From Actinomycetota bacterium (GTDB lineage Bacteria > Actinomycetota > Actinomycetes > Nanopelagicales > Nanopelagicaceae): a stretch of 5,754 bases of DNA. Below, piece by piece: positions 825-5,754 of this stretch. The DNA is taken from assembly GCA_009699765.1 (NCBI GenBank), contig WLNN01000089.1:1-5754 (forward strand), read 5' to 3'. Made by a program: the position numbers and the translations under genes. The notes under the pieces were generated by a model, which was given only the letters and a program-made list of their open reading frames with translations, searched no databases and was not told where the DNA came from. The first letter of the stretch is position 1; every line of letters begins with the position of its first letter.

Positions 825-1699
825 GAGTAAATTCCTTCGCCGATCCAAATGCGTTGGAGCATATGCCAATCCTGTGGCGCTTTTGAAATTCCTGCTTCGA
901 ATGCGGTTGCCAAAGACTGAACCGTTTCATTTACACGTTGGCTTTCGTTGCCGTGAGTTGAAAGAACAATCTCTTGGAAATTAATATGGATACCAATCTC
1001 TGTGTAGCTAACATGGGCTGCAACTAAAGGAACAGACTCCTTAATAGCTAGCACTGCTGGACCGGCGGGCATCTTTGCGATTTTGCCGAAGAAATTCACC
1101 TCTATCCCAGAATCTGACAAGTCGCGATCTGCAACCAAAGCAATCAAACGCTTTTCTCGCGCTCTCTTCATGAGAGTGATGAATGCACGTGAGTCCAATC
1201 CGAGAACCTCAAAACCCATCTCTTCTCGATATTGTAGAAATCTGCGAAAGAGCTTCTCTGGATTCAGAATTTCAGCAACAGTTACGAGTGGAATGCCTTC
1301 CTGACAGAAATATGCCCCTGCATGATCCCAATTTCCCGAATGCGGAAGCGCAATAATCACACCACGTCCTTCAGTTATTGGATCACGAAGCAGGTTTTCA
1401 CCAGTGCATGACACTGTCTGCTTAATCCGATCAGGTGACCATTTATGAATTCTGAATGTATCGCACCAATATCTGAGATAACTTTCTAGCGAAGATATTA
1501 CGAGTACTTCTAATTGCTCTTCATTAAGATTCGGTTTCACGATAGATAAATTGGTCCGAAGGCGACAAACACTTTTGCCATTTCTCTTATACATTGATTT
1601 CGAAATGGAATTGAAAAACTTATATGCACTTTTTTCAGGAAGTATGCCGACCAATTTCCAGCCGATAACGTAGGCAATATATGAGATTTGATCAACCAT
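821..1699 (-). CDS. patA: PatA-type phosphatidylinositol mannoside acyltransferase (HtrB/LpxL family)
   Basis: 292-residue membrane-associated acyltransferase of the lysophospholipid/lipid A acyltransferase (HtrB/LpxL) superfamily. The mycobacterial homologue (Rv2611c/PatA) transfers a fatty acyl chain from acyl-CoA to the mannose added by PimA. The catalytic H-x4-D motif is ALPHSGNWDH, with H120 and D125. A second conserved block is ADRDLSDSGIEVNFFG (190-205) followed by K-M-P-A-G-P (209-214), typical of the substrate-binding PxGP region. The C terminus has the family signature PQDWHMLQRIW (275-285). The N terminus is moderately hydrophobic and amphipathic rather than a clear signal peptide. 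The ATG overlaps the end of pgsA by 8 bases (1692-1699) and the stop overlaps the pimA start by 4 bases (821-824), so the three genes are surely cotranscribed and translationally coupled. Only a weak TGGA precedes the start, as expected for coupling. Acyl-chain preference and the exact acceptor cannot be read from sequence. Confidence 0.9.
   Translation of the reverse strand: MVDQISYIAYVIGWKLVGILPEKSAYKFFNSISKSMYKRNGKSVCRLRTNLSIVKPNLNEEQLEVLVISSLESYLRYWCDTFRIHKWSPDRIKQTVSCTGENLLRDPITEGRGVIIALPHSGNWDHAGAYFCQEGIPLVTVAEILNPEKLFRRFLQYREEMGFEVLGLDSRAFITLMKRAREKRLIALVADRDLSDSGIEVNFFGKIAKMPAGPAVLAIKESVPLVAAHVSYTEIGIHINFQEIVLSTHGNESQRVNETVQSLATAFEAGISKAPQDWHMLQRIWIGEGIYS
833..838 (-). promoter_or_regulatory. 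Shine-Dalgarno site for pimA
   Basis: GAAGGA on the minus strand, eight bases before ATG 824, lies inside the last codons of the acyltransferase gene. It supports ATG 824 as the pimA start and reinitiation across the ATGA stop/start overlap. It is the clearest ribosome binding site in the window. Confidence 0.7.
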
Positions 1700-2297
1700 G
1701 ATTAAAAAGTCCAGCGCGCACTACGAGGATTCTCTGTATTACAGTCACTAGACCGAGAACAAAGAGCAACCACATGCCCAAGGCAAGGACATAAGCGACA
1801 CCTAGGCCATGTAATCCGATTGCAGTTAAGGCAAGAATTATTCTCTCTGTTCGCTCAGCTATGCCGACGGTGCAAGGAATTCCGAATGATTCCGCTTTCG
1901 CTCGAATGTACGGAACCAGCATGCCGGTAACAATTGCCCCAAGAACTACTGGAGTCAGTCTGTTATCAGTACGAACGCAATAAATTGCAAGACTTCCTAG
2001 AATCGCAGCATCTGTAACTCTGTCGCAGGTCGAGTCCAGAAAACCGCCCCATTGGCTGGCACCTTTTGCCGAGACTCGTGCTATTGCTCCGTCAAAGAGA
2101 TCGCTAGCCGCAAAGAAGCAAATTACAAGAGTGCCAATAAACAGTTCGCCTTGGAAATAAAAATAGATTGCCGCAACGGTCGTTCCAAATGTTCCTATCA
2201 AGGTGACGGCGTTTGGTGTAACCCCGAGGCGAGCTGCTCCTCGAGCTATAGGCTCGATAAGGCGACTTACCGCCGGTTTAAATGCCGAACTGACCAT
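1692..2297 (-). CDS. pgsA: Phosphatidylinositol-phosphate synthase (CDP-alcohol phosphatidyltransferase)
   Basis: 201-residue integral membrane enzyme that condenses CDP-diacylglycerol with inositol 1-phosphate to give phosphatidylinositol phosphate, the precursor of PI and PIMs. The CDP-alcohol phosphotransferase signature is present: D66-x2-D69-G70-x2-A73-R74, then G84-x3-D88-x3-D92, which supplies the metal-binding aspartates. About six hydrophobic segments can be seen, near 30-48, 52-66, 97-108, 114-131, 152-168 and 170-188. The N-terminal PIARG (16-20) and the later ...AKAE...AERTER (133-152) resemble M. tuberculosis PgsA1 (Rv2612c). The gap between the AR and G parts of the signature is 9 residues, one more than usual. 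ATG 2297 is the only start available, because an in-frame TAA lies six codons upstream. No Shine-Dalgarno sequence precedes it, so it may be leaderless. It heads the pgsA-patA-pimA unit. Neighbours argue for PIP synthase over a PG-phosphate synthase. Confidence 0.93.
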   Translation of the reverse strand: MVSSAFKPAVSRLIEPIARGAARLGVTPNAVTLIGTFGTTVAAIYFYFQGELFIGTLVICFFAASDLFDGAIARVSAKGASQWGGFLDSTCDRVTDAAILGSLAIYCVRTDNRLTPVVLGAIVTGMLVPYIRAKAESFGIPCTVGIAERTERIILALTAIGLHGLGVAYVLALGMWLLFVLGLVTVIQRILVVRAGLFNHG

Positions 2298-2303
2298 GGC
2301 TTC

Positions 2304-2309
2304 ATCGTA
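2304..2309 (-). promoter_or_regulatory. Putative -10 element for leaderless pgsA transcript
   Basis: TACGAT on the minus strand ends six bases before ATG 2297. That is the distance expected if transcription begins at the A of the start codon. A -35-like TTGAAC lies at 2325-2330 on the same strand, inside the first codons of the divergent gene, with a 15-bp spacer (shorter than ideal). The absence of a ribosome binding site at pgsA fits a leaderless mRNA. No experimental start site is known to me. Confidence 0.45.
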
Positions 2310-2313
2310 GAGT
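2308..2313 (+). promoter_or_regulatory. Putative -10 element for leaderless plus-strand gene
   Basis: TAGAGT matches TANNNT and ends seven bases before ATG 2321, so a transcript could begin at or next to the start codon. The sequence before ATG 2321 (TTATCTCC) has no Shine-Dalgarno core. Its first two bases, the TA at 2308-2309, are also the first two bases of the opposing TACGAT. No good -35 hexamer is seen at the right spacing. Confidence 0.42.
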
Positions 2314-2320
2314 TATCTCC

Positions 2321-2917
2321 ATGAGTTCAACTACCCATAGCGCCGTGAAATCCATCAAAATATATGGTCACGTAAGCGCGATGCCCGAAAAGTTTGCAGG
2401 GCTTTTCAATGGCTCTGTGGCCACAGAGGTTGAACCAGAATCCGATGTGGCAATTTTTGTAGTCAACCCATCCGCCGGTATCGATGAAGCGACGATTTCC
2501 ATGTGGCGAGCTTTTGAAGAATTTCAAACCCCCCGCTTGGTATTAGTCACCGTCCTAGATGGGATGGAGTTAGATTTTGAAGATGCTGTAATGGTTGGCA
2601 ACCGCGTATTCGATTCACTTGTTACTCCATACCTTGTCCTGCATGGAGATTCAGGAACACCAATCGGTACGATCTCTCTTAAAGATTTTTCAACAAAAGA
2701 TTACTCAACTAACCCACCGACTCCTGGAACAGCAGATTCAGAACTTCAAGAGATGGTTGCTGATTTCCGTGAAGAGTATTTAGATCATATGGTTGAAATG
2801 GAAGATGGCGCCTTTGCAGCCGGAATTCTTTTTCCTGCGCTTCCCGTAAATCTCGCTAATGGTCTCGGTTTAGATTTGGTAGAAAACTATTTGGCCTCAC
2901 TACCAAGCAGCAGCTAA
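2321..2917 (+). CDS. Degenerate EF-G2-like G-domain protein (predicted pseudo-GTPase)
   Basis: 198-residue soluble protein that I read as a reduced domain I of an EF-G/EF-G2-type translational GTPase. Residues 12-30 (IKIYGHVSAMPEKF...) align by eye with the EF-G strand and P-loop (GHxxAGKTT), but M21, P22, E23 and K24 stand where G, K, T, T should be. Residues 31-42 jump straight to DVAIFVVNPSAGID (42-55), the strand and helix after switch II, so switch I and the DTPG motif are missing. RLVLVTVLDG (72-81) matches the NKxD/TKxD strand with V78 in place of lysine. LFPALPV (170-176), NGLGLDLVENYL and LPSSS (180-198) match the end of the G domain. Domains II-V are absent. ATG 2321 is the first possible start, as an in-frame TGA at 2291 is followed by no ATG, GTG or TTG. 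It is divergent from pgsA and its 3' end overlaps HIT. Nucleotide hydrolysis is unlikely; the role is unknown. Confidence 0.85.
   Translation: MSSTTHSAVKSIKIYGHVSAMPEKFAGLFNGSVATEVEPESDVAIFVVNPSAGIDEATISMWRAFEEFQTPRLVLVTVLDGMELDFEDAVMVGNRVFDSLVTPYLVLHGDSGTPIGTISLKDFSTKDYSTNPPTPGTADSELQEMVADFREEYLDHMVEMEDGAFAAGILFPALPVNLANGLGLDLVENYLASLPSSS
2413..2428. repeat. Perfect 16-bp palindrome inside the EF-G2-like gene
   Basis: CTCTGTGGCCACAGAG is self-complementary over all 16 bases with no loop. It covers codons 31-36 of the plus-strand gene, about 92 bp from its start. It has no following T-run, so it is not an intrinsic terminator. It could be a protein-binding site, a scar where the EF-G switch region was lost, or chance. 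Confidence 0.6.
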
Positions 2918-3433
2918 TTCAGCGCGAGTTTGATTGAGCAACTGCGGGAGAACTTTAGTCTTTCCAATTATTGGCATAAAATTTACATCACCTGACCACC
3001 GCGGAACAATGTGTTGATGGATGTGTGCGGCAACTCCGGCACCAGAGATCGCTCCTTGGTTCATTCCAAGATTGAAACCTTCTGCATTTGATACTTTGCG
3101 AACAACTTCCATTGCATGCGCCGATAAATCTGTGATTTCGTGCCGTTCTTGTATTGAAAGATCAGTCAGATCTGCAACATGTCGATAAGTACAAACTAGA
3201 AGATGGCCTGGATTATATGGATAGAGATTCATAACCACGTAAGCGTTTTCTCCGCGTGCAACGATCAAGCCGTCTTCATCTGAGAGAGATGGGATACGAC
3301 AGAATGGGCATTCAACATCATTGCCATCTAATGGGCGATTCTCACCACGCAAATAATCTAAACGGTGTGGAGCCCATAATCTCTGCCAGCCGTCAGGCAT
3401 CCCTGCTCCCCCATCGATTACGCGATCGGACAT
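2900..3433 (-). CDS. HIT-family protein, probable Ap4A phosphorylase/hydrolase (Rv2613c-like)
   Basis: 177-residue cytosolic histidine-triad protein. The M. tuberculosis homologue Rv2613c acts on diadenosine tetraphosphate (Ap4A). The catalytic triad HIHQHIVPRW places H137, H139 and H141 in order, with H139 the expected nucleophile by family position. Other family blocks are GWQRLWAPHRLDYL (15-28), LSDEDGLIVARG (50-61), MNLYPYNPGHLLV (68-80), FNLGMNQG (120-127) and the C-terminal GDVNFMPIIGKTKVLPQLL (148-166). CPFC (C42, C45) looks like half of a structural zinc site; as I recall it, this pair is not kept in Rv2613c. ATG 3433 lies six bases after the thrS stop, so it is almost certainly cotranscribed with thrS. 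Only a weak AGG precedes it. Its TAG stop lies inside the end of the convergent plus-strand gene (18-base overlap). Family membership is certain; the substrate is inferred from the homologue. Confidence 0.92.
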   Translation of the reverse strand: MSDRVIDGGAGMPDGWQRLWAPHRLDYLRGENRPLDGNDVECPFCRIPSLSDEDGLIVARGENAYVVMNLYPYNPGHLLVCTYRHVADLTDLSIQERHEITDLSAHAMEVVRKVSNAEGFNLGMNQGAISGAGVAAHIHQHIVPRWSGDVNFMPIIGKTKVLPQLLNQTRAELAAAW

Positions 3434-3439
3434 GAGTAG

Positions 3440-5428
3440 TTAAACCTGAACTCGATCAGAAACTGCTTTAGAGATTTCCTTTATTGCATCCGCTATTGGT
3501 ACGCCGTTCTTCTGATCGCCATTGCGATAACGGAATGAGACTGCGCCAGCATTCATATCTTCTTCGCCAGCAATCAACATAAATGGGATTTTCTGCATCT
3601 GCGCGTTACGAACCTTCTTCTGCATGCGATCATCAGAGACATCAATATCCGCACGAATTCCAGCCAACTTCATCTGTTTTACAACACCGGTGAGGTAATC
3701 CGCAAAGGTATCAGCCACTGGAATTGCCATAACTTGAACTGGCGCTAACCAAGGAGGGAAGGCTCCGGAATAATGCTCGGTAAGAACACCAAAAAATCTT
3801 TCGATAGATCCAAAGAGCGCTCTATGAATCATGACTGGACGTTGACGCGTTCCATCTGAAGCTGCGTATTCAAGTTCGAATCGCTGCGGCAATTGGAAAT
3901 CAACTTGAATAGTAGACATCTGCCAAGTACGGCCGATGGCATCTTTTGCTTGCACTGAGATCTTCGGACCGTAGAAAGCAGCGCCACCTTCATCTAGAAC
4001 TAACTCAAGATTCTGAGCCAATGCAGCCTTTCTAAGGGCTTCTGTCGCTTCTTCCCAATCAGCATCTTCTCCAACAGACTTCTCGGGATTACGAGTTGAA
4101 AGCTCAAGATAGAAATCCTCTAACCCATAATCACGGAGTAAATTAAGGACGAAGGTGAGAAGTGAATCGAGCTCGTCGGGCATCTGCTCCTTGGTGCAGT
4201 AAATGTGCGCATCATCTTGCGTGAATCCTCGAGCTCGTGTGATCCCATGAAGAACGCCGGATTTTTCGTAGCGATAAACGGTTCCAAATTCAAAGAGTCG
4301 CAGCGGCAACTCGCGGTAAGAACGACCTCTTGCTTGAAAAATTAAATTGTGGAAAGGGCAGTTCATAGGCTTCATGTAGTACTGCTGGCCGGGACGTTTG
4401 ATTGTTCCGTCTTCATGGAGTTCTTCATCCATAATCATTGGCGGGTACATACCCTCGGAATACCAATCAAGGTGTCCAGACTTTTGGAATAGCGCTGCCT
4501 TTGTTAAATGAGGCGAATAAACAAACTCATAACCCTCTTCTTCGTGACGCTTGCGTGAATAATCTTCCATCGCTCTGCGAATGATTCCACCCTTAGGATG
4601 GAAAACTGCAAGACCAGAACCAATTTCATCAGGAAATGAGAACAAATCGAGCTCTTGACCAAGGCGGCGATGATCGCGCTTTTCTGCCTCTGCAAGAAGC
4701 TCCAAATATGCGTTCAATTCATCTTGTGATGGCCATGCTGTTCCATAAATTCTTTGCAGCATTGGATTCTTCTCAGAACCGCGCCAATAAGCACCAGCAC
4801 TTCTCATTAATTTAAATGCAGGAATGTGCTTTGTTGAAGGAAGATGAGGACCTCGGCATAAATCAGACCAGACCGGCTGTCCATCGCGACCTAAATTGTC
4901 ATAAATCGTAAGTTCACTTCCACCAACTTCAACGCTTGCTTCTTCTCCCGCCGGACCCTTAAGTCCTATGAGCTCGCATTTGTAAGGCTCGTTAGCTAAT
5001 TCAACCAACGCCTCTGCTTCGGTAGTGACACGACGCTTGAAGCGCTGACCATCTTTAACAATCTTGCGCATCGCTGATTCAATTTTTTCAAGATCGTCAG
5101 GATTGAATGGGCTTTGTGGATCAAAGTCATAATAAAACCCATCCGTGATTGGAGGACCAATACCTAAACGAGTTTGAGCAAATACTTGTTGTACTGCCTG
5201 CGCCATTACGTGAGCAGTTGAATGTCGAAGCACAGCCAATCCCTCAGGCGATGAAATCGAGATTCCTTCAATGACATCTCCATCAACAATGTCGGTCCAA
5301 AGGTCGCGAAGAACACCGTTGATTTTGCAGACAACAATCTCCTTGCGCTCTGCAAAGATCTGGGTTGGACGCTGGTCAGCAGCAACTATCTGATCCAGGC
5401 CGTCTACCTTGATTGCGATATCGGACAT
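3440..5428 (-). CDS. thrS: Threonyl-tRNA synthetase
   Basis: 662-residue class II aminoacyl-tRNA synthetase that charges tRNA-Thr with threonine in the cytoplasm. The full bacterial domain order is present: N-terminal TGS domain (about 1-62); the N2 editing domain that removes mischarged serine, with H69-x3-H73 and C191/H195 (SDLCRGPH); the catalytic core (about 255-560); and the anticodon-binding domain (about 563-662). Zinc ligands expected for threonine selection are C357 (MNCPFH), H408 (DDAHIY) and H535 (MIHRALFGS). Motif 2 is [11 protein letters not shown] (381-391) with R386 and E388. Motif 3 is [11 protein letters not shown] with R544. Length is normal and no key residue is missing. 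ATG 5428 begins four bases after the upstream stop, with TAGG about eight bases before it, which points to an operon. I see no room for a T-box leader. Confidence 0.98.
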
Positions 5429-5432
5429 AGGA

Positions 5433-5754
5433 CTAGCCTACCGAAAAGTATTCAACCTTTTCTCGCATTTGAGCATTAAAGGCTTCTGATGCGGACCCGA
5501 TGGGCAGTCGATGTTCGCCTATCTGCAAAACTGGCTGTGCGATCTTTAAGCTGCTCAAGAGTGTCACCTCTTTGGCATCAGGAATCTCAGAGATGTGAAT
5601 ATTTCGTACCTCCACCCCGCAACGCTCAATGGCAATTGCTCGCATAATGCCAGGCAATATCCCTGCAGAAATCGGTGGTGTCTGCCATTTGTTATCGAAT
5701 AGAAAGGCAATATTCGAAAGACCGGTCTCAGTTACAAAATTCCCACCATCAAAA
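5433..5754 (-). CDS. Class IV PLP aminotransferase/lyase, C-terminal part (possibly PabC-like); 5' end outside window
   Basis: The reading frame is open from the window's right edge to a TAG at 5433 and gives the last 106 residues. They show the fold-type IV signature: [15 protein letters not shown] (the E-x3-SN stretch that binds pyridoxal phosphate), a TPP-x3-AGILPGIMR block, and the later [14 protein letters not shown], in the position of the family's ADEVFLTNSL. Class IV includes branched-chain aminotransferase, D-amino-acid aminotransferase and 4-amino-4-deoxychorismate lyase (PabC, folate synthesis). The short C terminus and S-S-L-K-I-A-Q-P-V pattern make PabC a fair guess, not a firm call. 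The catalytic lysine lies upstream of the window. A TTG at 5657 is an internal leucine codon, not a start. It is followed after four bases by thrS on the same strand, so the two are likely cotranscribed. Confidence 0.85.

Follow-up and report, generated by a model that had tools for sequence, protein, structure and literature searches.

The window, that is, the whole stretch of 5,754 nucleotides that was analysed, carries a small gene with an ATG start at positions 2321..2917 of the forward strand. Its product of 198 residues is a stand-alone, reduced form of EF-G2 domain I, as judged from the open reading frame, a match to an EF-G2 profile and the predicted fold. Upstream lies a divergent gene, pgsA (1692..2297, reverse strand), which encodes a CDP-alcohol phosphatidyltransferase (Pfam PF01066 and synteny) and marks the EF-G2 slot; the two start codons are 23 nt apart. 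At the other end, the 3' part of the gene overlaps by 18 nt with a convergent gene for a HIT-domain protein (2900..3433, reverse strand; PF01230). The threonyl-tRNA synthetase gene thrS (3440..5428, reverse strand; PF00587, PF03129, PF07973 and synteny) also belongs to this conserved neighbourhood. An open frame at 5433-5753 on the reverse strand leaves the window at its end; we take it to resemble the C-terminal part of a class IV aminotransferase. At gathering scores, Rfam gives no matches in the window, and searches of PADLOC and PHROGs give none for the 198-residue protein (E <= 1).

The relationship with EF-G2 can be recognised in several ways. The EF-G2 model NF009377 matches the protein with E 3.3e-15, aligning residues 41-162 with profile positions 102-224, and the structure 9k0z, titled as EF-G2 of M. 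smegmatis, matches at 7.2e-10. The predicted structure is confident and has the domain-I fold. These profile and structural comparisons bear out the initial annotation, which had proposed that the protein follows domain I from its first strand to its last helix. The protein does not reach the thresholds set for complete members: it scores 55.5 bits against an equivalog cut-off of 890 bits for NF009377, and 17.8 bits against a gathering score of 26.5 for Pfam GTP_EFTU. Together with the shared position between HIT and pgsA, the homology makes common descent with actinobacterial EF-G2 (also called EFG II) very likely. Unlike that protein, the short form has no G1, G3 or switch I, and it lacks part of G' and domains II-V. 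By its defining features it stands outside the EF-G2 GTPase family, from which it very likely descends.

Several parts of domain I can be located along the forward strand by alignment and predicted fold. There is no GKT in what was once the P-loop strand with its loop (residues 12-22, 2354..2386). A DFED motif (residues 85-88, 2573..2584) is almost invariant across the family, and TPYLVLH (residues 102-108, 2624..2644) is a family signature unlike the sequence of full-length EF-G2. The retained G' subdomain (residues 104-160, 2630..2800) consists of four predicted strands followed by a helix. This acidic helix and its end (residues 140-162, 2738..2806) form the proposed stalk-facing part. Beyond a gap of 24 columns, domain I closes with its final strand and helix (residues 166-198, 2816..2914).

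The losses were counted in 84 stand-alone loci with products of 179-219 aa; as L014 and L081 are one and the same gene, 83 of the genes are distinct. The comparison set holds 40 full-length EF-G2 rows, left from 60 after near-identical ones were removed, and is biased by retrieval to Streptomyces and its kin. Aligned with full-length EF-G2, the reduced protein misses the stretch from the P-loop to DTPG, shows the 24-column gap in G', and stops where domain I ends. The initial annotation had estimated roughly 25 residues missing ahead of LFPALPV. Domains II-V are gone, as it had also proposed. G1 (GK[TS]) and G3 (D[TS]PG) occur in none of the 84 stand-alone rows, the window protein included; G1 is present in 39 of 40 full-length rows and G3 in 37. 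Both motifs are likewise missing from all 242 proteins of 150-260 aa, a set that includes the query and one fragment from genus g31. Of the nucleotide-handling elements named in the initial annotation, the P-loop motif, switch I and DTPG are absent; the TKxD site is not diagnostic. G4 ([NT]K.[DE]) is on site in 3/84 stand-alone rows and in only 8/40 full-length rows, and was therefore rejected as a mark of loss. The commonest forms in full-length actinobacterial EF-G2 are THLE and THLD, which replace TKxD in 25/40 rows; this bears on the nucleotide binding of the full-length protein itself. A pseudo-GTPase keeps the GTPase fold and has lost the nucleotide motifs, a description that suits the 198-residue protein with its predicted fold. 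As sequence features, missing motifs do not prove missing nucleotide binding.

The reduced gene is found throughout the order. A match is present in 194 of 201 genomes, in 106 of the 108 of good quality, and in each of the 16 genera that were sampled. Three of these matches, in G098, G186 and G211, are weak; the one in G098 is EF-G itself (frame 711), and in G186 the first part of the gene stands at the end of a contig. Seven genomes have no match. The four that were rechecked (all but G004, G236 and G238) also have no pgsA match, so the slot was probably not assembled in them. In one genome (G158, locus L079) the interval from thrS to the reduced gene gives no HIT match. Related bacteria carry full-length EF-G2 in the same slot between HIT and pgsA, where the initial annotation had suggested looking for it.

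A protein search finds 874 relatives at E <= 0.001. Among the 120 matches listed, three rows with 70-74% identity are named "Candidatus Nanopelagicaceae bacterium", and on the strength of such names the window is likely to come from this family of small-genome bacteria. The name "translation elongation factor EF-G" is attached to several members, whereas P0142 goes under "flavin-binding protein dodecin". A separate gene encodes EF-G proper: 47 of 61 genomes of the order match the EF-G2 model strongly, almost all of them with a single frame of roughly 700 aa. None of these matches exceeds the EF-G2 cut-off, and the one that was checked (L112) is nearest to EF-G1 of M. tuberculosis. The annotators knew of no described family of the reduced form, and none was found in titles and abstract openings of the open-licence literature.

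The substitution pattern shows that the gene is under purifying selection. Of the 1378 pairs formed by 53 loci of the genus, 38 are unsaturated; their median dN/dS is 0.132 (range 0.049-0.411). For the neighbouring genes the medians, each from the pairs available for that gene, are 0.033 for HIT (18 pairs), 0.057 for pgsA (17), 0.065 for the acyltransferase (14) and 0.022 for thrS (23). By segment, in ten close pairs, dN/dS is 0.05 in the core, 0.064 in helix 4 and G', 0.073 in the last strand and helix, and 0.186 in the former P-loop, the highest value among the structured parts. The reading frame is intact in the 84 loci read, and it is intact in L072. Retention by selection with losses in frame, as first proposed from the window alone, is thus upheld by orthologues gathered beside pgsA.

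The gene also appears to have its own promoter. A TAGAGT sequence (2308..2313, forward strand; TANNNT scan) lies 7 nt before the ATG and is predicted to serve as the -10 box for leaderless transcription. A TANNNT ending 5-9 nt ahead of the start is present in 74 of 83 loci, while 200 shuffles average 6.85 and reach 13 at most; at other offsets it is found in 2, 2, 4, 4 and 18 loci. A match resembling a Shine-Dalgarno sequence is found in 0 of 83. Leaderless transcription, which is frequent in Actinobacteria, is predicted for the reduced gene on this basis.

Two explanations would deny the protein a role. A decaying pseudogene or chance reading frame could account for the single frame shift seen in G008 (locus L229), either a sequencing error or a true break in a genome only 41% complete, and for two of the 14 pairs with the lowest dS, at dN/dS 0.31 and 0.41. 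The other 12 of these pairs lie at 0.049-0.095, and the intact frames, the low median, the conserved promoter, the confident predicted fold and the presence in nearly all genomes of the order refute decay for practical purposes. It is also hard to credit that the stretch is kept mainly as regulatory DNA of the divergent pgsA, with the protein incidental. In close species, codons 1-11 (2321-2353) have a dS of 0.02 on 65 sites, compared with 0.37-0.67 in other segments, as if the control DNA of pgsA extended into the reduced gene. This is limited to the first 11 codons, and the other 187 are under selection at the protein level.

The family has also acquired residues of its own. Fixed in the 84 stand-alone rows, and different in the 40 full-length ones, are T102 (P in 38), P103 (L in 36), V106 (P in 38), F149 (A in 30), F165 (V in 37), A173 (V in 39) and P175 (A in 24). 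Residue 152, a glutamate in the window protein, is acidic in 84/84 stand-alone rows and in 3/40 full-length rows, where R is found in 24. In an alignment, such newly fixed residues are a sign of constraint, not of decay; some of them (F149, F165) may merely repack the core.

The acidic G' helix is the part that suggests a partner. Acids are nearly invariant at residues 141 (84/84), 148 (82/84) and 152. According to PMC8446442, the residues of M. tuberculosis EF-G1 that contact L7/L12 include E221 and E228. Alignment of an EF-G of the family with 7cdw puts D155, E159 and D162 at the stalk-contact sites, with 155 and 162 at E221 and E228; a direct alignment of the 198-residue protein on M. tuberculosis EF-G1 is shifted by four residues from this placement. 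At these putative sites stand-alone rows have an acid in 63/84, 41/84 and 71/84, respectively, and at all three in 31/84. Full-length rows have one at 155 and at 162 in 40/40 each and at 159 in 0/40. The acidic helix thus appears to be kept and extended, and the exact stalk contacts seem to drift. Acidity as such is not new: six domain-I stretches of full-length proteins have net charges of -19 to -27, and the value for the family is about -21.

The domain may instead serve a different partner from the stalk, such as an enzyme, a regulator or some other translation factor, and the G' helix may simply belong to the fold. This is quite possible, at somewhat less than even odds. The most conserved stretches also include TPYLVLH in the G' sheet as well as F165 and P175 in the last strand, which fits such a partner; on the other hand, the kept part corresponds to the region of EF-G known to contact the stalk, and the acidic helix is strengthened in the stand-alone family. 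A sensor that binds a guanine nucleotide in a non-standard way, or ppGpp, is improbable. The former P-loop strand is kept in the predicted fold, and its GH at residues 16-17 is frequent in the family (73/84 and 62/84), but GK[TS] and D[TS]PG are absent from every row and this loop is the least constrained of the structured parts.

Reduced forms of EF-G2 can be found elsewhere in the class. A search of 197 genomes matched 141 at 1e-8; this search misses some, such as G053, which is unmatched although a full-length EF-G2 adjoins HIT. Closed short frames occupy the slot in family f34 (G397, 262 aa; G364, 232 aa; G373, 391 aa) and in f39 (G346, 344 aa). The MAG Candidatus Nanopelagicales bacterium CPBay_Spr15L08_96 has a short EF-G2 of 354 aa in the slot and clusters with f34 in trees, and G280 (f34) carries a further remnant. 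Full-length EF-G2 is interspersed among the short forms (G327, G382). The reduced EF-G2 genes that occupy the slot in other actinobacterial families (L138-L141, L150, L232) differ in their end points. Short frames in G244 and G291 were rejected as reductions, being merely cut at contig ends.

Five short forms of other families were scanned, and they retain the same part of EF-G2 as the window family: the model matches from position 91-106 to 218-341. Four of the five lack G1 and G3, and the fifth, G373, has no DTPG but has a GSAGSGRS loop. In G249 (f5, L237), G263 (f32, L236) and G243 (f26, L238) the slot is empty and HIT adjoins pgsA. The gene can thus be lost outright, and its retention in the window family is not automatic.

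On a tree built from the flanking proteins with 39 of the 56 rows, the full and short states require six changes. A single clade for the four reduced f34-like rows is rejected (p 1e-53). Within the order, one reduction for the stand-alone forms and those of genus g31 is not rejected (p-AU 0.194). The g31 form (L118-L120, L146) sits in the same slot and has no G1 or G3, as in the window family. Unlike the 198-residue protein, it has 323-329 aa, retains G' in full and ends in a tail for which domain V is predicted; by sequence, the match of this tail to domain V is not significant (hhalign E 0.095, one comparison).

The original observation of a stripped-down EF-G2 domain I is confirmed, and its reading as a retained pseudo-GTPase is supported. 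GTP-independent stalk binding is the likeliest role, with bL12 as the putative partner. The full reading, to which we give a probability of about 0.38, is that a protein without phosphate-binding motifs, kept in the EF-G2 slot by purifying selection, is a cut-down EF-G2 whose acidic G' helix binds the bL12 stalk with no need of GTP. A full-length ancestor would have lost the stretch from the P-loop to DTPG, part of G' and domains II-V, leaving a protein incapable of GTP binding. This protein would dock on the ribosomal stalk and compete with, or hold off, elongation and initiation GTPases, so that translation might be tuned or parked in a slow-growing cell. A broader proposal is rather unlikely: that Actinobacteria, several of them with small genomes, repeatedly carved a nucleotide-free stalk regulator from EF-G2 until nearly only the stalk-facing domain was left, the window family being a fixed and re-wired translation regulator of a new kind.

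EF-G2 is widespread, and its job is unsettled (PMC3150367). In the present family a translational GTPase has very likely become a stand-alone pseudo-GTPase, to which some sources give the name "translation elongation factor EF-G". The phosphate-binding motifs and four of the five EF-G2 domains are gone, and one domain is selected for across the whole family. The same gene has been trimmed similarly in other lineages, which indicates where in EF-G2 the retained function resides, and the 198-residue protein offers a small object for testing that function. A comparable known case is full-length EF-G2 of M. smegmatis, which does not act as a normal ribosomal GTPase: as cited in the same study, it has no ribosome-dependent GTPase activity. 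Unlike the reduced protein, it has all five domains and still binds guanine nucleotides. Another likeness can be found in the methanogen ribosome dimerisation factor PurH-aEF2, a relative of EF-G/EF-2 with a proposed ribosome-parking role (PMC12605026). That factor is archaeal and joins aEF2 with PurH, and it is set beside the 198-residue protein by description only.
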